Positions 1,709 through 37,199 of a stretch of 37,199 nt of DNA are shown in pieces. The stretch is taken from IMG/VR virus record IMGVR_UViG_3300023202_000040, positions 1-37,199 of that record, one strand, 5' to 3'. This DNA comes from a virus. A program made the translations under genes and the position numbers. The first letter of the stretch is position 1. Each line of letters starts with the position of its first letter. The notes below the pieces were generated by a model, which was not told where the DNA came from, did no database searches, and saw nothing but the letters and a program-made list of their open reading frames with translations.

Positions 1709-4167
1709 TCAGTGACCTCCAGGTCGGGCGCCCTGCTTGGCGTCGTTCGGCCCGGCCTCCACCAGTAGCCGGTGCCCTGCTCTCGCGCCCTTCGCTCGTA
1801 GCGGTTAAACCGCCGCCGGGCCCCTTGAGGATCCGCCGCCAGGGCCAGCTGGTCGAATACTTCGCGCTCGAGGACAAGCCGCGAGTACCAAAGCGAGCCG
1901 CCTGGTGTGTACCGCGAGGCAAATCCTACTACATCGGCGGCCAGATCGGGGTCCTCGCCTTTGACAATCTCCTGCACGTTGCCGAGCGTTAACCGGGTCG
2001 CATGCTCTGCCATGTCGACGGACGGCCCGAGCATGGTGGTGATCGGCCCGGAGCCGAACCGGTTGGCATCGTGGAACAAAAAGTCGCCATAGATCCCGAG
2101 GCCGCCGCCCTGCACGAACGCGGCCGCCCAGGTTGCCGGGTCGTCGACGTCGCGCGGATCCTTGCCGCGGGCAATGAGTTTCAGCTGCATCGCCGCCATG
2201 CCGAGCACCGTGGTTGCGATGATCCCGTTTGCGGCATAGGCCGCCGCCGCTGCACCGCCGCGCAGCTGTCGGGCCGCGAGTGCCCGCTGCAGGTGCAGCG
2301 ACAGCACGGCGATCGGGAAAGACTTGAATTGCAGGCCGAGGCGCGCGACCTCGCCCATGATCGTGCCCCGCTGCGCACCGCCGCCGGTCGTGATCACGCG
2401 CGCCAGTGCGTCCGGTTCCGGCACGGCATACAAAATTTCCTCGTTAAGGACTTCCTGCACCCTCGACGCCAGTTGCTGCCGGCGAGATATCGGCAGATCC
2501 TCGCGCGCCATCAGCTGGTCGACGGTGAAAAACTGTGCGCCCTGGTGCTCGGTGAGCGATGTGCGTCGGATCTCATCCCAATCGGCCGCCGTCAGGCCGC
2601 GCGAGCGTATTGCATCGCCGAACGGGCCCTCGATATCGTCGAGCGAGCGGCCGAAATTTTCGGCCAGGTTGGCGCTGAACTCCATCGCAAACGCCCGCCG
2701 GCCGGCGTCGGTCATGGCATTCAGGCCAGAGGCGCGGATGGTGAATTCGGACAATTTGGCGCCGACGTCCGATATCCGGCCGACTGTGCCGCCGCCGGTG
2801 CCGCCGATCTCGGAGAACCGGCCAATGTTCGAATAGGCTTCCGACCAGGACAGCGCCGTGATGCCAATGCGGGTGGCCAGTATTCGGTCGGCTTCGTTGG
2901 CGGGGTTGAGTTGCGACAGGTAGCGGCTGAGCACCTTGACCGAGCGCAAACCATTCCAGCGCGCCGTGAGCTGCATGAATCCCATATCGGAAATTGCCGA
3001 CAACGCGGCCGATCCGAGCGTCGCGGCGACATTCCAGTTTCGGATCGCACCGGCGGCGTGCGCGAGCATAGGCGAGCGATTGGTGTCGCCAGTGCCGTTG
3101 ACGATTCGAAACAGCGCATCATTGTTCTGTCGAGTGATCGGCTTGTCCTCGACGGTGCGAGCGAGATCCTGCAGGTAACGGAAACTCGCCGCCGGATTCG
3201 GCCCCATGACCTCGAGCAGCGACACGTCGCGCGCCATGTCGCGCAGGTGGTCCATCATGCTCGCGTAGACGTTTGGCGAGCCGAAACGGTCCTGGTATTC
3301 GATCCAGGCATCGGCGTCGCGAAATACCAAAAACCGCGCTTCCTGCCGGCGGTTGGCCAGCTTCTTGCCGCCGGCGGCACCCGGCACCATATCGCTCAGG
3401 CCGTTCGTCCGGATGGTTTCATAGACGCCCTGCAATACGACGTCTAACGAGTCCGGCGTAAAGGGCGCGCCAGTCTCGACGTCGATCATGCGATCGATAT
3501 CGACACGCTGCTTGACGAAATCGACCCACTCGCCCTTAGAGACATTGCCAACCGCGACTGAGTCGTGCGCTTGTGGCAAGCCCCAATCGGCGCGTTTAGG
3601 GATTGCCCCGCCGGCGCGGTTGAAGCGCTGGCGCAGAGTCTCTGCGGCTTCCGACCAGGAGCGTGCAAAGGCGCGCGCATCGGCGTCGCCGGTGGTTTCG
3701 CCGAACGCCTCGCGAACCGCATTGCCGAGCATTTTGCGGTTGCGCGACAGGCCGGCCATTCTCGAGCGAAGCTGTGACAGACCATCGGCCATGATCGCGT
3801 GCGCCTGGCCAAGAATCGCACGGCCGCGGGTCTCGACATTCGACCAGCTGGCCCGCCCTCGACTGTCGCGCGCGAGTATCGTGCGCACGCCAAGCGTCGG
3901 CCCGTCCTGGTAGTCGAGGATCCGGCGGCCGTTCTCGGCGTTTCGGATGGCCTGCAGGGCCGCCTGATACTTTTGCAGCCTGACGTCTTGTTTGGCGCGC
4001 TCGATGCCGAGCTCCTCGGCCAGGCGGGCAGCGGACTCGGGCGAGTGTTGTGGGTCCAGCACGAACCGATCGGCGGCGTCGCGCTGCCTGGCATACAGTT
4101 CTTCGGCCTGGTCCCTGGTCATACGGCCCGCCCTGACGGCGGCCTCGACACAATCGGCAAAACTCAT
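1705..4167 (-). CDS. Large internal virion protein (ejected core protein, 820 aa)
   Basis: Probably one of three proteins stored in the capsid around the portal and ejected with the DNA to form a channel across the cell envelope, as T7 gp14, gp15 and gp16 do. That role is inferred from position, immediately upstream of the tail spike and downstream of two other large internal proteins, and from composition. The body is helical and charged. A hydrophobic Ala-rich stretch at about residues 630-660 follows a QFKSFPIAVLSLHLQRAL motif that I associate with large phage virion proteins of this type. The C-terminal tail is Arg-rich. The start at 4167 overlaps the previous stop (ATGA); an in-frame ATG nine codons earlier lies inside the preceding gene and is less likely. 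No lytic transglycosylase motif was recognised. Confidence 0.7.
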   Translation of the reverse strand: MSFADCVEAAVRAGRMTRDQAEELYARQRDAADRFVLDPQHSPESAARLAEELGIERAKQDVRLQKYQAALQAIRNAENGRRILDYQDGPTLGVRTILARDSRGRASWSNVETRGRAILGQAHAIMADGLSQLRSRMAGLSRNRKMLGNAVREAFGETTGDADARAFARSWSEAAETLRQRFNRAGGAIPKRADWGLPQAHDSVAVGNVSKGEWVDFVKQRVDIDRMIDVETGAPFTPDSLDVVLQGVYETIRTNGLSDMVPGAAGGKKLANRRQEARFLVFRDADAWIEYQDRFGSPNVYASMMDHLRDMARDVSLLEVMGPNPAASFRYLQDLARTVEDKPITRQNNDALFRIVNGTGDTNRSPMLAHAAGAIRNWNVAATLGSAALSAISDMGFMQLTARWNGLRSVKVLSRYLSQLNPANEADRILATRIGITALSWSEAYSNIGRFSEIGGTGGGTVGRISDVGAKLSEFTIRASGLNAMTDAGRRAFAMEFSANLAENFGRSLDDIEGPFGDAIRSRGLTAADWDEIRRTSLTEHQGAQFFTVDQLMAREDLPISRRQQLASRVQEVLNEEILYAVPEPDALARVITTGGGAQRGTIMGEVARLGLQFKSFPIAVLSLHLQRALAARQLRGGAAAAAYAANGIIATTVLGMAAMQLKLIARGKDPRDVDDPATWAAAFVQGGGLGIYGDFLFHDANRFGSGPITTMLGPSVDMAEHATRLTLGNVQEIVKGEDPDLAADVVGFASRYTPGGSLWYSRLVLEREVFDQLALAADPQGARRRFNRYERRAREQGTGYWWRPGRTTPSRAPDLEVTE

Positions 4168-7100
4168 TGCGCAGCCTCCCGGCTTATGTTGCAAAGTCGA
4201 ATATCTTCAAGCGCCAGTTCGACGTCGTCCAGCTGGTTTATTGTCTGCCGGGCCGAACGCTGCGTGAGCTCGCCGTCGATCTCGCGAACCACTTGCAAAA
4301 GCTCGCCCTGGTCGTCGGCCAGTTGCTGGTAGCGCTCCATTACGGCCCGATAATCGGTATCGGACACAGTGCCGGTGCGCGTCGATTCACTAGGATCCGC
4401 TGCGTTCTCGCGTACAATAGACCTCGGAGGTTGATCTATGGCAGTACGGTTTTTCGATTGGGAGTTTAGGCCCGCCGCAGTGCGGGATCTGCCTTCGGGC
4501 GGCGAGGACGGCCTGGTAGTCGCCGAGCCCGGCGAAGGCTGGTCGCCCGCTTCGGTTGCCGAAATCCTCGAATCCGGTGAGGAGCTCTCGGCCGAGGTGT
4601 TCGTCACGCGATTCCCCGAAGCGCCCGCCGTCCCGGAAGCCTCGGCCGCCTGAACCCGCGCCCGCATGTCCTCGGGCAACTTCATCATCGCCATTCGCCG
4701 GTAAGATTCATCCGCCCGGGCCAGGGCGGCCGCATATAGTTGCATGCTTTCCTCGGCCATCGCCTGCCGTTGCGCTTTGAGCGCCGGACTCGCGGCAAGT
4801 TCCTCGTCAGGTATGTCTCGCAGCGCTTTGGATATCTCCGTGCCACGGCCAAATTTGGCCTCGGCGATGTTCGGTTCCCATATCTGTACCTCGCCGATTT
4901 GACCGTTTTTAAAGCGCACAAGTACCTTGTGATCGAGATAGCCAAGTCCGCTGTAATGCAATCCCTCATCGAGCAGCTCGAACTCGTCGGCCAGGCGGGT
5001 AACGATCGCGTCGGAGGCGGCGTCCGTGCGGGCAGTAAAGCCGATACGGACGACATCGGTAACGCGCTCAGTACCGTACTTTTTGCGCGTCGTTTTCTTT
5101 TTGACTTCCGTGCGCTTCTTGAGCCCCGGGTTTTTGAGCTCGACGTCGTCACCGAGATCCTCGGCGATTGCGCCGCCCACCCTGGCGAGTCGATTCTGGT
5201 TTGTTTTCGCGTTCTTGTAGAGATCGCCTAACGACCAGCCGCGTTGGCCGGCCAGGAACCGGCGCGCCGCGCGCGGACGTTCGGCCTGCTCGAGATTGTC
5301 GAGCCGGACCGGGCGGCCTTCGACAGGATCTAGCCGAGCCTCATCGCCCGCCGCTTCACTACCCGATCGAGCTCGGCGAGTTTCGCCCCCGCCGTTATTG
5401 CTTTCGAGGACCGCGCGTCGAGCGGTGTCGAGAAAATCGGCGGCGACGTCTGCGGGTTTTTCGCCGCCTTTGACCCGCCGCGCGGCTTCGGTGAGCGCGT
5501 CTGAGATCGGGCCTTTACTGTTCGCGAGCCTTGAGATTTTCGCCTGGGCATCGTTAGCCTCCTGGATGCGTTGCTGATTGGCGGCGCGATCGAGCTCGTT
5601 GCGGCCCGCCTCCTGAATCCTGTTTTCCTCGGCGACCAGGCGGCCGAATACGGCTTTGTCTTTCCTGGCCTCGCGCAGGGCATTATCGAGCACCTGGGCG
5701 CGTTCGAGATACAGGGACTCGGTGATCGACTGCGCGCCGAACAGGTCCTCGGTCTCCACAGTCTCCGTGCCGGCAGTGCGCACCTGGTCGACGATCGAGC
5801 GGGCTTGCGTTTCGTTGGCCGGCTGCGTCTTTCTGAGCACCTCGATCATGGCCTGCTGCAGCTTCGGGTCGCTGGCGGCATCGCCGACCAGCGCGCCGAA
5901 TCGTTCATCGATCACGCCGTTGACGACCTGCATAAACGCATCGTCGTCGAGTTTGGAAAGTCCGCGCGCCTGGCGCACCAGGGCGGACCGTGGCGGCAAC
6001 GGTGGCAGCATGGCATCGCCGAGCTCGCCTAACTCGCGCAGAATCTTCGCCGCATCGATCGGTGAGCCGGTACCCTCGGCCATGTTCTTGATCGCCGCCA
6101 CCCGGCGCGCATCGCCCGCAGTGACGCCATCGACCTCGCGCATGACGAAGCCATTGAGCATGGTCTCATCGGCTGCCTGGCCGGCCTCCCGGGCTCGAAG
6201 CGCCAACGCGCGCCGCTGGTGGCCGTCCGCAATGAACTGGCGCCCGTCCTTGCGCTCCCATATCAGCGACACGCCTGCCAGTCGCCGATCGAACTGGCGG
6301 ACGTCTTTAAGCGCATCCGTGACGCCGGCATCATCGGCGCCGCCTTTGAACTGAAAGGTTCGGGCATCGACGTCGATCTCGGCCGGATCGATATCGACCA
6401 GCTCCCCGGGATCCTCGGCGCGGGTAATTGTCCGATTCATGCCGTCTGCAGGCTCGAATTCTTCTACCACGCTACGCACGTCGACCGCCTCGCCACGTTG
6501 AGCCTGCTGCTGTGCAATGTCGAGCGCGTCCTCATGGACGGCGCTGGCGGGCTCCTCGTTGAGCCTGAGCGGGTTTTGCTCGTCGACCTGTTCAAGCGCC
6601 TCGAGGATCCGCTCTGCCTCGGCCATTTCCTCGGTCTCGACCACCCGCCCGGCCTTTTTAGCGGCCCTGTAACGCGCGAGCGCCCGCCGTGATCCCTCTA
6701 CCCCGGTCCCTATCGCACCGCCCAACAGCGCACCACCTGCGCCGGCAGCGAGCACGTTAAGCGCCGAATCTCTGAGCGTCCACGGCGCCTCAATATCCCG
6801 CTTGAACTGCGCCACCTGCGCCTGAATCGGTATTTCTACCGCCGCCGCGACCGAGCCCTCGATCGCCGCCGTGCGCCCGAACACACCAAGCAGGCTTCGG
6901 CCGGCGCCGCCGGTGGCCCCTGCGGGCAGCGTTGCCAGTACCATTGGATCGGTCATTACGGCCGCACCGGTGCCGACCAGCTGGCCGAAGAATCCCCCGC
7001 GTTCGATTGCGAACTGCTCGCCGGTTCTGAGTTCAGCCGCCTCGGCCTTGAATTCCTCAAGCAGCGCCTGATCGCTCGGCACCCGGCCCGGGTATCGGCG

Positions 7101-7463
7101 TTCGAATTCGAGCACCTCGTTGAAAGCCGCCTGGCCGCGCGGACCGATCGAGCGATAAAACGGGTGGCTTTCGAGCCGCCCCTCGAGCGCCGCCTCGCGC
7201 AAAGTCTTCACAAAGTTCTGCGGCAGCAAGGCGTATTCAGCAGCGAGCTGCTGATTGCCACCGAGCTCGGCGATGGTCTGCGCGCGTTGGTCGTTCTTTT
7301 GCCGCCAGGCGCGCATGGCCGAATTGCTGAGTTCCTCGCGTCGTGTGAGCGAAAAAGCGGCTTCGATGGTCTCGGAAAGCGTGCTCGGCTCGTCGTCCGC
7401 GGTCCAAGGTTCAACGCCCGCCCGCGATCGGTACGCCTTCAAACCGTCGAGAAAGCCGCTCAT
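4164..7463 (-). CDS. Giant internal virion protein with ParB-like and RelA/SpoT-like domains (1099 aa)
   Basis: By position this is the central ejected core protein, between two other large virion proteins. It is a mosaic. Residues 1-145 are helical. Hydrophobic Gly/Ala-rich patches lie near 150-190 and 235-257. Residues about 350-470 look like a ParB/Srx-type domain: VDIDPAEIDVDARTFQF, an EXK-like strand, then ADGHQRRALALR with D413, H415 and R417. Residues about 760-900 carry a RelA/SpoT-type synthetase signature: LKKR at 781-784, K788-790, VTDVVR with D803, GLGY with Y842, then GEVQI with E858, followed by an AKF helix. A Ser/Pro/Thr/Arg-rich low-complexity linker follows (about 935-1020), then a C-terminal coiled coil. 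The gene starts at a TAATG overlap with its upstream neighbour. The domain calls are by eye; whether they are catalytically active is unknown. Confidence 0.72.
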   Translation of the reverse strand: MSGFLDGLKAYRSRAGVEPWTADDEPSTLSETIEAAFSLTRREELSNSAMRAWRQKNDQRAQTIAELGGNQQLAAEYALLPQNFVKTLREAALEGRLESHPFYRSIGPRGQAAFNEVLEFERRYPGRVPSDQALLEEFKAEAAELRTGEQFAIERGGFFGQLVGTGAAVMTDPMVLATLPAGATGGAGRSLLGVFGRTAAIEGSVAAAVEIPIQAQVAQFKRDIEAPWTLRDSALNVLAAGAGGALLGGAIGTGVEGSRRALARYRAAKKAGRVVETEEMAEAERILEALEQVDEQNPLRLNEEPASAVHEDALDIAQQQAQRGEAVDVRSVVEEFEPADGMNRTITRAEDPGELVDIDPAEIDVDARTFQFKGGADDAGVTDALKDVRQFDRRLAGVSLIWERKDGRQFIADGHQRRALALRAREAGQAADETMLNGFVMREVDGVTAGDARRVAAIKNMAEGTGSPIDAAKILRELGELGDAMLPPLPPRSALVRQARGLSKLDDDAFMQVVNGVIDERFGALVGDAASDPKLQQAMIEVLRKTQPANETQARSIVDQVRTAGTETVETEDLFGAQSITESLYLERAQVLDNALREARKDKAVFGRLVAEENRIQEAGRNELDRAANQQRIQEANDAQAKISRLANSKGPISDALTEAARRVKGGEKPADVAADFLDTARRAVLESNNGGGETRRARSGSEAAGDEARLDPVEGRPVRLDNLEQAERPRAARRFLAGQRGWSLGDLYKNAKTNQNRLARVGGAIAEDLGDDVELKNPGLKKRTEVKKKTTRKKYGTERVTDVVRIGFTARTDAASDAIVTRLADEFELLDEGLHYSGLGYLDHKVLVRFKNGQIGEVQIWEPNIAEAKFGRGTEISKALRDIPDEELAASPALKAQRQAMAEESMQLYAAALARADESYRRMAMMKLPEDMRARVQAAEASGTAGASGNRVTNTSAESSSPDSRISATEAGDQPSPGSATTRPSSPPEGRSRTAAGLNSQSKNRTAIDQPPRSIVRENAADPSESTRTGTVSDTDYRAVMERYQQLADDQGELLQVVREIDGELTQRSARQTINQLDDVELALEDIRLCNISREAAQ
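4438..4653 (+). CDS. Possible overprinted antisense small ORF (71 aa)
   Basis: A 71-codon frame lies on the strand opposite the low-complexity linker of the 1099-residue virion protein. It has an unusually good translation start: GGAGG at 4426-4430, seven bases before ATG. A TACAAT hexamer at 4413-4418 could be a -10 box, but I see no convincing -35. The protein begins MAVRFFDWEFRPAAVRDLP and then becomes acidic with alternating hydrophobic residues, a protein-like composition. The sense frame here reads as Ser/Pro/Arg/Thr-rich low complexity, which is what an unconstrained frame opposite a constrained one can look like. No family was recognised. It may equally be a chance ORF in GC-rich DNA. 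Confidence 0.25.
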   Translation: MAVRFFDWEFRPAAVRDLPSGGEDGLVVAEPGEGWSPASVAEILESGEELSAEVFVTRFPEAPAVPEASAA

Positions 7464-9541
7464 TACCTGGCACCGGGATATTCGAGCACGAACGGCTCGC
7501 CGTTATCGCGAACCAGCGGGCGATCGCGGCCATTCTCAGCCGAGACCAGCGACACTCCATAGCGGCCGGCACCGAGCTCGACCAGGCGGCCGCGTTCGCG
7601 CGCGAGAACCAGCAATCTTTCCGGTGTGCCGTTCGCTACACCGGCAAAATCTTCCGGTCGCCAGCTGTCGGACCAGGCTTCGAAAGCGTCCTCGCTGACG
7701 CCCGGCGGGACGGCGACACGACGGCCGTTAAATTTGGCGGTCGGCAACACCTGCTCGAGCGCCTGCTCGAACAGCCCGGGCTCAAAGAGATCGGACAGGT
7801 CGCCGGTCGCGGACTTGAGCTCGGCGTATTTGGCGAACGCGGCGTCGATATATGCCTGTCGCTGGTTTGGCCAGTCGCCCAACGCCGCGCCGATCACGTC
7901 ATCGACCACTGGCTGGTAATCGATGCGCTTCGGCGTGATGCCTTTGTCCGCCGCAAGCACGGCCTGGCCGCGCATGACGTCGCGGGCAAGCGTACCCTGC
8001 CCGGCCATGACCATATTGCCGAGCAGCGCCATACGGGTCTGCCCGTTTTGGTCCAACTGGCCGAGCGTCGCCAGCGCATCATCGCCGGCGCCCGCGGTCA
8101 TGATCCCGAGCAAACCGACGCGCTCCTCGATTTCAGCCTGGTCATAGACCGCGGCCAGCTGGTCGGCTTCGGCGGCGGTGAATAGCGGCAGCGGCTCGCC
8201 GGTCAGCTGCCGGCCGATATCGGTCGCGCCTTGCCTTGCGGTGATCGATTCGGTGAGCTCGGCGGCACCGGAGAAGTCGAGCGGCTCGTCATCGATCAAA
8301 CCCTCGCGATTGACGAAGCCGCGCGGGTCGGTTTGCATAGCCCTGTCGACCTCGGCGCTGGTGTCCTGTAGCGCCTCCAGTAATTGCACCTGGTCTGCAC
8401 TGGCACCGCCCGCTCGTAGGGCCTGCTCGAGCTCGATGAGCTCGGCGTCACGCTGCGAAGTCGGCAACCGCCGGAATCTGTGCACCTCGCCTTGAATCGC
8501 CTGGGCGGCGTCAAAGTCGGCGGCGAGTTCAGGGTCCTGTAGCCATTGCAAATCATCCGCCACCTGTTGCGCCTGCCGATTGTCGGGCGCGAAACCGTTA
8601 CGGAGCACGCTGATGGCGTCCTTGACGCGACCGGTGCGGGCACGCTGTTCGGCCGCCAACGCCGCGGAATCGGTGGCCGCCCGGTCTGCCAAAAGCGAGC
8701 GCTGGCGATTTCTGAGCGTGATCATTTGCCGCGTGACGGCTTCCTTGTCCTCGGCCGTGATGCCGATATTCGACGCCTCGACGTCCTGCCAGCGCGCGAT
8801 CGCGTCGGCGCCCGCCTCAACGCCCTCGGTGCGGATTAAGCGGTCGAAATTGCCGAGCACCTCCTGGCCGACTACCTCGCGCTCGAAATCCTGCTGCAGA
8901 TTTGCCGCGGCACCCTCGTCGAGCAGTTCGCCCTCGACGCCCTCCTCGAGCAGCGCTTCAAGTTCCTGGCGACGCGCTTCGATCAGCGCGACGTCGCCCT
9001 CAAAGGCGGCCGTTTTGGCATCGTCGAGAAAGCCCTCGACGCCGCGGGAGAGATCCGCTGCCGCCTCGGCTTCGAGCTCGCGCTGCTGCTGGTCTATGAC
9101 TTGCAGCTTTGCGCGCCCGGCGTAGTCAGCGATGCGTTGCTGAATGAACGGCTCGAGCTCGGGCGGCGCTTCCGACAGCAAGCCCTCCGAAAGCCCGGCC
9201 ACGCGCGCGTCGAATGCTTCCGGGTCGTTCGGGTGCTCGATGGCGAACTGGCCGACCTGGTCGCGGATATCGGTCTGTACGGCGGCCTGGTGTGCAAGGA
9301 TCGCCCCGCGCCGGCGCGCCCGCCCGCGGATGGTCATTGACTGGCCGGGTATTGCCTCGCCGCCGGCACCGAGTTCCTGGCCCTCCTGGAAACCGGCCTC
9401 GGCGGCCGCCTGGTCGAGCTCCTGGTTTCGGCGCGCGCTGAACCGCTCGAGCTCAGCGGCGAGCACCTGTCCCGGGTCGCCGGCATTCGGGTCGACGCCG
9501 GCCGTCGTCGGCGTCACCTCGCGGGTAAATCGGCGGACCAT
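7463..9541 (-). CDS. Internal virion protein, helical (692 aa)
   Basis: Second of the three consecutive large genes that probably encode the ejected inner core. The protein is highly charged, rich in Ala, Glu, Gln and Arg, and predicted to be almost entirely helical, with several coiled-coil-like stretches (for example AQRGE-, QQQRELEAEAAA- and RRQELEALLEEG-type segments in the first 230 residues). This composition and the length recall T7 gp15-type internal proteins; direct homology cannot be shown by eye. Both ends use TAATG junctions (at 9541 and 7463), so it is translated coupled to the gp14-like gene before it and the 1099-residue gene after it. No signal peptide or enzymatic motif was seen. 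Confidence 0.65.
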   Translation of the reverse strand: MVRRFTREVTPTTAGVDPNAGDPGQVLAAELERFSARRNQELDQAAAEAGFQEGQELGAGGEAIPGQSMTIRGRARRRGAILAHQAAVQTDIRDQVGQFAIEHPNDPEAFDARVAGLSEGLLSEAPPELEPFIQQRIADYAGRAKLQVIDQQQRELEAEAAADLSRGVEGFLDDAKTAAFEGDVALIEARRQELEALLEEGVEGELLDEGAAANLQQDFEREVVGQEVLGNFDRLIRTEGVEAGADAIARWQDVEASNIGITAEDKEAVTRQMITLRNRQRSLLADRAATDSAALAAEQRARTGRVKDAISVLRNGFAPDNRQAQQVADDLQWLQDPELAADFDAAQAIQGEVHRFRRLPTSQRDAELIELEQALRAGGASADQVQLLEALQDTSAEVDRAMQTDPRGFVNREGLIDDEPLDFSGAAELTESITARQGATDIGRQLTGEPLPLFTAAEADQLAAVYDQAEIEERVGLLGIMTAGAGDDALATLGQLDQNGQTRMALLGNMVMAGQGTLARDVMRGQAVLAADKGITPKRIDYQPVVDDVIGAALGDWPNQRQAYIDAAFAKYAELKSATGDLSDLFEPGLFEQALEQVLPTAKFNGRRVAVPPGVSEDAFEAWSDSWRPEDFAGVANGTPERLLVLARERGRLVELGAGRYGVSLVSAENGRDRPLVRDNGEPFVLEYPGAR

Positions 9542-10026
9542 TACGGACCGCCTCGAGCGAGGATCCGCTCGCCGGCGTTCAGGATCGTCGTGGCCGAGCG
9601 CACCGTCGACAGTCGCGACACGCTGGCACGGTTGCGCTTGAGCGCATCGATTCGGGTGCGCGTGTTGAAGTCGTCCACAAATGAATCCTCGGCCGCTCGC
9701 TGTGCATCGGTCATGCTGATATTGGCGACCGAGCCAGACATGGCGAGGCCGGACGCCGCGGCGTTGGCCGACTGCGAGCCGAGAATCGCGACCAGCCGGC
9801 GCCGGCGCTGGATTTCGCGATCCCTCGACGCCGTCGTTTCCCGTCGCTGCGCGAGCTCTAGTTCCACCTCGCGGGCACCGGCTGCCTGGCGCTGTGCGCC
9901 GACACTCAGCGCCGTCCCACCGACCGCCAGCGCAGCGACAGGGCCGCCGAGTGCAAATGCCGTCGCGGTGGCGATCGCCGGCAGTGCGAAGTCGAGATCC
10001 GTGGATTTTTTAACGAAGTCGCCCAT
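9541..10026 (-). CDS. Small internal virion protein, gp14-like (161 aa)
   Basis: A small protein between tail tube B and the large core proteins, the place of gp14 in T7-like virion clusters. Residues about 12-45 are hydrophobic and Ala/Gly-rich (ALPAIATATAFALGGPVAALAVGGTALS), suitable for membrane insertion after ejection. A basic helical region (QRRETTASRDREIQRRRRL) and a stretch of SQSANAAASGLAMSGSVANI follow; small phage internal proteins often have the same order of hydrophobic N-terminus, basic helix and Ala/Ser-rich segment. The assignment rests on position and architecture. The stop overlaps the next start (TAATG). Confidence 0.62.
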   Translation of the reverse strand: MGDFVKKSTDLDFALPAIATATAFALGGPVAALAVGGTALSVGAQRQAAGAREVELELAQRRETTASRDREIQRRRRLVAILGSQSANAAASGLAMSGSVANISMTDAQRAAEDSFVDDFNTRTRIDALKRNRASVSRLSTVRSATTILNAGERILARGGP

Positions 10027-36220: not shown

Positions 36221-36715
36221 TTAACTCTCCTCGCGTAGCCGGCGAACCCCAAGGATTCGCGAGCGTGAATAGCGGGCGATCGATACCTGGTTGCCCTGAT
36301 TGCCGCCAAGGATCTCGATCAGGTCGCCCGCGTGGCCTGCATAAAATCCGACATGCCCGGGTGCGTCGATCACCTGCGGACCCGGCTGCGGGCCGGTGCC
36401 GCGCGCCAGTATGACGACGTCGAAGCCGACACGCGCATTTTCTAGCTGGTGCAGCCCTACCCCGCCGCCGGTCGCTGTCAACGCAACCGGTTTGCCGACC
36501 TTGAGCCAGGAGCGCGCCCGCAAACTTTTCGACCGCGGCAGCCTGAGCAGCCAGGCGATGTAATTCGCGAACGCTGAGCACCAGGGCACTTCATCGTTCT
36601 CTGGCCAGCTGGCATCTAGGCGCAGCATTGCAAGCACCTGGGGATTGTCCAGCTGCCCGGTGATTTCCTCGGTGCCGATAAAGCGTTCGGCAATGTCGAA
36701 TGCGGTGATATTCAT
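36221..36715 (-). CDS. Endolysin, TIGR02594-type cysteine amidase/peptidase (164 aa)
   Basis: Degrades peptidoglycan at the end of infection. The pattern is that of TIGR02594/CHAP-like phage cell-wall hydrolases: VPWCSAFANYIAWLL with catalytic C46; GFDVVILARG near 98-106; PGHVGFYAG with H121; and IEILGGNQGNQVSIARYSRSRILGVRRL with N139. Cys, His and a polar third residue are all present. No signal peptide is seen, so it needs the holin next door. The start overlaps the tail-spike stop (ATGA). Confidence 0.84.
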   Translation of the reverse strand: MNITAFDIAERFIGTEEITGQLDNPQVLAMLRLDASWPENDEVPWCSAFANYIAWLLRLPRSKSLRARSWLKVGKPVALTATGGGVGLHQLENARVGFDVVILARGTGPQPGPQVIDAPGHVGFYAGHAGDLIEILGGNQGNQVSIARYSRSRILGVRRLREES

Positions 36716-37199
36716 CAGCTGCTCGCGTGGTTTCCGAATGCCTCGAGTGTGGCCAATATCGCGTTGACTTTGCCGCCCAGGGCATCGAGCGCGGCGTTGA
36801 TGGTGGCGTCGTCACCGGACCCCGAGACGCCGTGCGATTCGCTGGCGTCGGTTACGTGGCTGCGCGATTGTATTGGCGTAGTGACGTCGCCGATCGAAAA
36901 GCGCGGCGCGTAGGTATAGCCGCTGCCGTTGATATCCAGGCCCTTCACGCCACTCACGTCGCGCGTCTGCAGCACGGTATTGCCCGAGGAGCCGCGGGGC
37001 ACCAGCGTCAATGCCGGCCGGTCGTCGCCGAAGCCGCGAATGGTCACGGCGCAGGACATGAGCGCCAGCAGCAGGCGGTTATAGGACACGCTGGCCGCGT
37101 CGGCGACGCCGGCGACGTCGTCGTTGGCAAACGAAAAGCCGGGATTCGCGCTCGAAGCCACCTTGATCAGCACCGGCTTGACCGCCGTCGGGTTGCCGG
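36715..37199 (-). CDS. Tail spike / tail fibre, C-terminal part (continues from base 1)
   Basis: This is the C-terminal end of the tail spike that begins at 1708; bases 37101-37199 duplicate bases 1-99. The new part adds the last 128 residues or so. They are rich in beta-prone and small residues and end in a short predicted helix (AALDALGGKVNAILATLEAF), which could be a trimerisation tip. The stop overlaps the ATG of the endolysin gene at 36715 (ATGA), so tail spike and lysis genes are translationally coupled. A GTG at 37173 is in frame but lies inside the protein and is not a real start. Confidence 0.82.
   Translation of the reverse strand, partial: GNPTAVKPVLIKVASSANPGFSFANDDVAGVADAASVSYNRLLLALMSCAVTIRGFGDDRPALTLVPRGSSGNTVLQTRDVSGVKGLDINGSGYTYAPRFSIGDVTTPIQSRSHVTDASESHGVSGSGDDATINAALDALGGKVNAILATLEAFGNHASS
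37101..37199. repeat. Terminal redundancy of the contig (right copy)
   Basis: Exact copy of bases 1-99. It should be trimmed once when the genome is circularised. The tail-spike coding frame crosses the join without interruption. Confidence 0.93.

Follow-up and report, generated by a model that had tools for sequence, protein, structure and literature searches.

A putative RelA/SpoT-type nucleotide pyrophosphokinase cassette within an internal virion protein of a podovirus

The window, an IMG/VR virus record (IMGVR_UViG_3300023202_000040) of 37,199 bases analyzed over its full length, carries on its minus strand the gene for a 1099-residue internal virion (core/ejection) protein that contains a RelA/SpoT-type nucleotide pyrophosphokinase (SYNTH) domain (Table 1). 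The virion genes on this strand run in the order tail tubular A and B (phrog_394 and phrog_376), gp14-like protein (phrog_418), 692-residue protein (phrog_992), 1099-residue protein, phrog_684 protein, and tail fibre, the last with a T7-type N-terminal domain whose Pfam match was slightly under the cut-off. This is the succession of tail tubes, gp14, gp15, core protein(s), and fibre that characterizes T7-like internal virion proteins. The position of the gene, together with the biology of T7-type phages, suggests that the 1099-residue protein is a virion component that is ejected along with the DNA. The TGA stop codon of its gene and the ATG start codon of the following gene overlap as ATGA (4164–4167); the two genes are translationally coupled, and because of the overlap there is no room for an immunity gene between them.

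Table 1. Positions of the domain, its predicted functional residues, and the associated genes in the window.
Feature	Position	Strand	Basis or remark
Internal virion (core/ejection) protein gene, 1099 amino acids, bearing the domain	4164..7463	-	Between gp14/gp15-like genes and next virion gene
RelA/SpoT-type nucleotide pyrophosphokinase (SYNTH) domain, residues 744–930	4674..5234	-	Tas1 profile match, AlphaFold model, and best PDB fold match
K782, invariant basic residue at domain start; donor-phosphate site by homology	5118..5120	-	38-sequence alignment
D803, predicted catalytic Mg2+ Asp	5055..5057	-	Aligns with Tas1 D327 and SaEAS D121
R806, predicted ATP-binding Arg	5046..5048	-	Aligns with Tas1 R330 and SaEAS R124
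G-loop GYLDHK, residues 841–846, acceptor (syn3) position	4926..4943	-	Family consensus GYFDRK
E858 and Q860 of GEVQI	4884..4892	-	Align with Tas1 E382 and Q384
Conserved body with invariant DGHQR motif, residues 347–525	5889..6425	-	18-sequence alignment, hidden Markov model limits; ParB-like by motif only
Variable cassette slot, about residues 717–1039: RelA/SpoT-type domain, then Ser/Pro/Thr-rich linker	4347..5315	-	Comparison with empty relative, and slot states
C-terminal tail after slot	4167..4346	-	In the window by eye and by alignment to relative L144, not by hidden Markov model
gp14-like internal virion protein gene	9541..10026	-	phrog_418, E=3.6e-5 (weak)
692-residue head/core protein gene in gp15 position	7463..9541	-	phrog_992, E=5.9e-25
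Next virion structural protein gene, about 820 amino acids	1705..4167	-	phrog_684, E=7.8e-181; ATG at 4165–4167
Small-alarmone-hydrolase-like HD protein, 144 amino acids	32388..32822	+	Best PDB match is the (p)ppApp hydrolase 7smg, E=3.8e-10

An initial annotation, made from the sequence of the window, had placed a synthetase domain at residues 760–900 (4766–5186) of a 1099-residue protein. The open reading frame and the coordinates were both right, and the limits given by a hidden Markov model (HMM) of the family, residues 744–930, are wider. Scans of the single window protein against Pfam, NCBIfam, and PHROGs gave no RelA_SpoT call; PF04607 was not matched above its cut-off in the window, and one relative reached E=0.016. 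The domain family thus lies outside the range of the PF04607 model. A tblastn search of the domain against annotated phages gave no match. Relatives were found in IMG/VR contigs and also in contigs of bacterial genomes, most of them alphaproteobacterial and some gammaproteobacterial; one relative, L054, lies in a Salipiger marinus genome. The profile search that the initial annotation had proposed failed with Pfam and succeeded with a profile of the family itself. The profiles of 13, 20, and 38 rows all include the window sequence. With 13 relatives one PDB chain was matched, that of Tas1 (E=5.2e-9); with 20, Tas1 (1.5e-15) and SaSAS (SaEAS, 7.1e-5); and with 38, Tas1 (1.7e-22), SaEAS (2.8e-7), and two canonical GTP pyrophosphokinases (0.0019 and 0.0033). 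The match to Tas1 covers profile positions 2–163 of 177, including the C-terminal GH..YE segment, and the similarity to the Apk/Tas1 enzymes is therefore one of the whole domain. A family profile built without the window still recovered the window domain (E=4.9e-43, with -Z 100000, a nominal 100,000 sequences), and the reversed window protein, used as a control, gave no match to the profile that includes the window.

The domain was modeled with AlphaFold from the 38-row alignment with a predicted local distance difference test score (pLDDT) of 96.9 and a predicted template modeling score (pTM) of 0.90; the first model, from 13 rows, had a pLDDT of 83.7 and a pTM of 0.81. The best PDB fold match was Tas1 (E 2.0e-6, template modeling score (TM) 0.66), SaEAS was matched with a TM of 0.69 and a root-mean-square deviation of 3.5, and among the matches listed all 50 PDB folds with E<=1e-3 were RelA/SpoT homologue (RSH) synthetases. 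When compared with viral models, the 13-row model was similar to large phage proteins that carry the annotations RelA/SpoT, ART-PolyVal-like, and DdrB-like. These results indicate that the domain has the fold of the RSH SYNTH superfamily, as first proposed for it from RSH and toxSAS enzymes; the structure comparison did not place it in an unrelated fold. D803 and E858 would be located together in the active site, which follows from the alignment because the equivalent residues of Tas1 share one active site.

The landmarks named in the initial annotation, LKKR...KKK (K782), VTDVVR (D803), GLGY (Y842), and GEVQI (E858), are all present in the sequence. K782, D803, R806, E858, Q860, and Y910 are invariant in all 38 aligned sequences at a mean column identity of 33%. 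Relatives with 24–41% identity keep these six residues, and the landmarks are not a product of chance. The catalytic Asp, the ATP-site Arg, and the E-x-Q motif of the SYNTH superfamily thus correspond to D803, R806, E858, and Q860, and the catalytic residues had been correctly identified. Tas1 residues are numbered from the printed alignment as the chain index plus 21. The ATP-site residues listed for Tas1 include R330, E382, and the Gln (PMC12691689), and the SaEAS crystal of the same study was obtained with the D121A mutant. Catalysis is probably retained, to judge from the invariance of K782, D803, R806, E858, and Q860. The Nei-Gojobori ratios of nonsynonymous to synonymous substitution rates in the module were mostly 0.05–0.23, with one pair at 0.43, and were similar to those of the body, which indicates purifying selection on the RSH module.

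We examined the region of the domain across the family of the protein body, which was found in at least 522 viral contigs. The slot states were sampled from the best 80 of these contigs, and 79 new loci were examined (relatives are designated by L numbers). The similarity of the body to an empty relative stops at residue 716. The RSH domain was detected at E<1e-3 in 18 of the 79 loci, including the divergent L185, and a different second domain in 32; the profile of the latter matched zeta toxin (6.2e-12) and PezT (1.0e-10), and its P-loop and Asp residues are conserved. The two domains occurred together in none of the loci examined. The full-length protein set, which was enriched for RSH by earlier searches, comprised 31 RSH, 28 zeta, 11 empty, and 12 other proteins, with L185 counted among the others at a stricter cut-off. 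The tail HMM was present in 26 of the 31 RSH, 27 of the 28 zeta, and 9 of the 11 empty proteins, and the tail is accordingly conserved irrespective of the cassette. The DGHQR body gave no PDB or Pfam match that would confirm it as ParB.

In the body tree the RSH, zeta, and empty states interleave, with at least 19 changes needed by a quick method in which several long branches are uncertain; the RSH state alone required 17 changes by the same method, 12 of which were forced by well-supported branches. The clearest single case is L181:4969-8289 (zeta) and L184:5002-8712 (RSH), which share 90.3% nucleotide identity over 7.1 kb that ends within the gene. Their bodies are 96.3% identical in amino acids over 728 residues, their cassettes of about 1.1 and 1.5 kb are unrelated, and the similarity resumes from the tail onward. 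An assembly chimera is an unlikely cause, with different dataset numbers and about 10% base differences in the shared part. The flanks are colinear, and no gene co-varies with the cassette in this pair. The pairs L153/L161 (zeta and RSH) and L156/L158 (empty and RSH) showed the same pattern. These comparisons indicate that the RSH domain is an exchangeable cassette of a podovirus protein family, a feature that the initial annotation missed although it had rightly recognized the RSH/toxSAS fold, the catalytic residues, and the location of the domain within an internal virion protein encoded in a T7-like structural cluster. By sequence, a putative alarmone synthetase occupies the slot in some proteins and a zeta-toxin-like kinase or some other insert in others, and in the rest it is vacant. 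The slot has the look of a site for exchangeable weapons, and a modular effector rather than a structural role is suggested because the cassettes swap on near-identical bodies.

Other arrangements were also observed. The RSH module precedes the body motif in L014, stands beside ART-PolyVal and GNAT domains in L015, accompanies ddrB-ParB in L041, and is fused to a Mu-type portal protein in L037:3276-5522 (Pfam Portal_Mu 3e-32). A 2308-residue protein of an uncultured Pseudovibrio contig (L047:4584-11507) has two RSH modules (residues 379–559 and 727–903). At residues about 776–958 of L185 the RSH-like cassette is divergent and has lost E-x-Q, and it is perhaps inactive or altered. The slot of L155 appears by eye to be filled by a second ParB-like domain with a VDGHHR motif. 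An empty-slot version of the protein occurs in L046 (HQ332136.1), Dunaliella viridis virus SI2, whose listed host is an alga; its major capsid protein is 52% identical to that of the window, and on account of this identity and the empty-slot protein it has the appearance of a phage of bacteria.

Fusions of such domains to phage proteins are already known. RelA/SpoT domains were described in phage polyvalent proteins and MuF fusions, zeta-like kinases were found fused to MuF, and packaging and injection of such phage proteins were proposed (Iyer et al. 2017, PMC5512222). The window protein resembles the polyvalent proteins in its RelA/SpoT domain, its large size, and its proposed injection; it shares their multidomain build, their place among late virion genes, and their exchangeable effector domains, and ART-PolyVal and ddrB-ParB domains are found in the relatives L015 and L041. 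The RelA/SpoT polyvalent proteins of that study belong to spirochaete and epsilonproteobacterial (pro)phages, whereas the present protein belongs to a podovirus and has a conserved body and tail with one swappable slot. The MuF-Apk2 synthetases of temperate phages have been proven biochemically (PMC12226406), and in these, too, an alarmone synthetase domain is fused to a phage virion protein. However, the carrier of Apk2 is a MuF head protein of prophages and that of the window domain a podovirus core protein; no MuF N-terminal domain was found by Pfam in the window protein, the N-terminal part of which belongs to the podovirus body family. The alternation of cassettes in one slot also distinguishes the podovirus protein from Apk2. 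Apk2 is followed downstream by the immunity genes IapK and Aph1, whereas the window gene has no adjacent immunity gene: the next gene overlaps it, none is linked to the cassette in L181/L184, and IapK was not sought by profile.

Tas1/Apk1, the (p)ppApp synthetase and type VI effector of P. aeruginosa (PDB 6OX6), is both the nearest solved relative in sequence and the best fold match. The equivalents of its D327, R330, E382, and Q384 and its C-terminal GH..YE segment are kept in the window domain. Tas1/Apk1 is delivered through PAAR and the type VI secretion system, whereas the window domain is carried by a phage internal virion protein; Tas1/Apk1 also has a Tis1-type immunity protein, and no linked Tis1-type gene was seen in the window. 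SaEAS, an exported Streptomyces alarmone synthetase (PDB 8VX3), shares the SYNTH fold and the same D, R, E, and Q residues and is a secreted single-domain enzyme, unlike the window domain, which is part of a virus-particle protein. No precedent for an alternating slot in internal virion proteins was found in a partial coverage of the literature. As far as this coverage goes, a single podovirus internal virion slot that alternates between synthetase, zeta-like kinase, and nothing on near-identical backbones without linked immunity is new.

We consider it fairly probable (about 0.66) that the domain is a catalytically competent RelA/SpoT-type pyrophosphokinase that serves as an exchangeable effector cassette in an ejected podovirus virion protein, with a product likely of the (p)ppApp type. 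Most likely, from the relatives retrieved, the product would be (p)ppApp or a mixture of (p)ppApp and (p)ppGpp. Of the products proposed initially, the (p)ppApp type is favored with Tas1/Apk1 and SaEAS as the nearest sequence relatives, and modification of tRNA-CCA is less favored. Several points weigh against this reading. Even the closest phage relative shares just 40% identity with the window domain. The acceptor (syn3) signatures are GxN in Apk and SxH in RSH (PMC12226406); the Apk1 signature (N370), which lies in the Tas1 loop GYSGVN, is absent from the window domain and from the family consensus, and GYLDHK and GYFDRK fit neither form. Two of the Tas1 residues listed in PMC12691689 also differ, K353 lying in an insertion of Tas1 and N370 aligning with K846. 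Because of the loop and these two differences, the acceptor, and hence the product, is not readable from the sequence. Moreover, strong (p)ppApp synthesis would drain ATP needed by the phage.

A (p)ppGpp-type alarmone synthetase, setting a stringent-like state that redirects host resources, would accord with membership of the RSH family, but Tas1 makes (p)ppApp and the guanosine signature SxH is absent from the window loop (PMC12226406); we regard this as unlikely, although worth keeping in view. We give little credence to a tRNA-CCA pyrophosphokinase like FaRel2, PhRel, or CapRel that shuts off host translation on entry. The fold and the catalytic residues are shared with these enzymes, CapRel was one of the folds matched by the 13-row model, and a phage-encoded tRNA-binding toxSAS exists in PhRel (PMC11782079), yet the profiles retrieved Tas1 and SaEAS rather than FaRel2 or CapRel, and a stop of translation would halt the phage too.

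In regard to the role of the domain, an inactive module with a structural, binding, or decoy function in the core or in ejection is suggested by its place within a virion structural protein and by the relative L185, a divergent copy without E-x-Q. The invariant catalytic residues in 38 of 38 sequences, the existence of close relatives without the cassette, and its replacement by an unrelated zeta-toxin-like kinase make this quite improbable, and the structural reuse that the initial annotation had also entertained is unlikely on the same evidence; no fixed structural role is needed because the slot can be empty or hold the kinase. The cassette swapping resembles that of polymorphic toxins, and related genes in alphaproteobacterial genomes adjoin homologues of an 829-residue virion protein, as might be expected if the domain were a classical polymorphic toxin with which a lysogen attacks its competitors, the role proposed for MuF-Apk2, rather than a tool of infection. 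However, no immunity gene changes with the cassette, the flanks of L181/L184 being colinear and the genes overlapping at ATGA, and no integrase was found in the window, which leaves a lysogen toxin improbable.

If the domain is an ejected pyrophosphokinase effector, the 1099-residue protein would be packaged and then ejected early with the DNA, and its C-terminal domain would use ATP to pyrophosphorylate the 3'-OH of a nucleotide in the new host before phage genes are expressed. Host metabolism, growth, or defence would be blunted, or rivals excluded. Since phage and enzyme would draw on the same ATP if (p)ppApp synthesis were strong, the protein may have to be present in few copies, be weakly active, or have its product hydrolyzed later. 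With regard to later hydrolysis, the window encodes a 144-residue HD protein about 25 kb from the cassette gene, in which the HD residues are conserved in the alignment. This protein is a possible antidote that would remove the product later in infection. Against such a pairing, HD proteins like this one were found in 468 phage records; among the sampled RSH-bearing records only L030 (115 kb) also has the hydrolase gene, and it was found in 0 of 21 further records, among which are L144, the closest relative, and two that carry the RSH domain, L157 and L217. A linkage of synthetase and hydrolase is therefore unsupported, since most sampled relatives lack the hydrolase. An HD_4 match inside L041 was judged spurious, with no HD motif and no match to a better profile. 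A bolder scenario, which we hold to be speculative and rather unlikely, is that this podovirus family equips its ejection machinery with toxin enzymes that can be swapped and have no immunity genes of their own. Here the synthetase delivered by the virion would cause an immediate pulse of alarm nucleotide that the (p)ppApp-hydrolase-like protein of the phage clears later, the host being first stunned and afterwards freed for phage replication.

Two further observations concern the record itself. The left-end tail-fibre frame (1–1708) and the right-end open frame (36715–37199), both on the minus strand, would join in frame, and from the list of open reading frames alone the record may therefore be a complete, circularly permuted genome. 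On the plus strand, 33553–34020 matches a D12-class DNA adenine methyltransferase over the first 71 of 253 model positions alone, and this gene may be truncated or frameshifted.

If the proposed role is true, podoviruses can bring in, as part of the ejection apparatus, enzymes whose targets are the nucleotide pools or cell-wall precursors of the host, ahead of all phage gene expression. The near-identical proteins with a synthetase, a zeta-toxin-like kinase, or no cassette would be natural matched sets for the role of an ejected effector, and work on toxSAS toxins would be joined with that on MuF polymorphic toxins and that on ejection proteins of phages.
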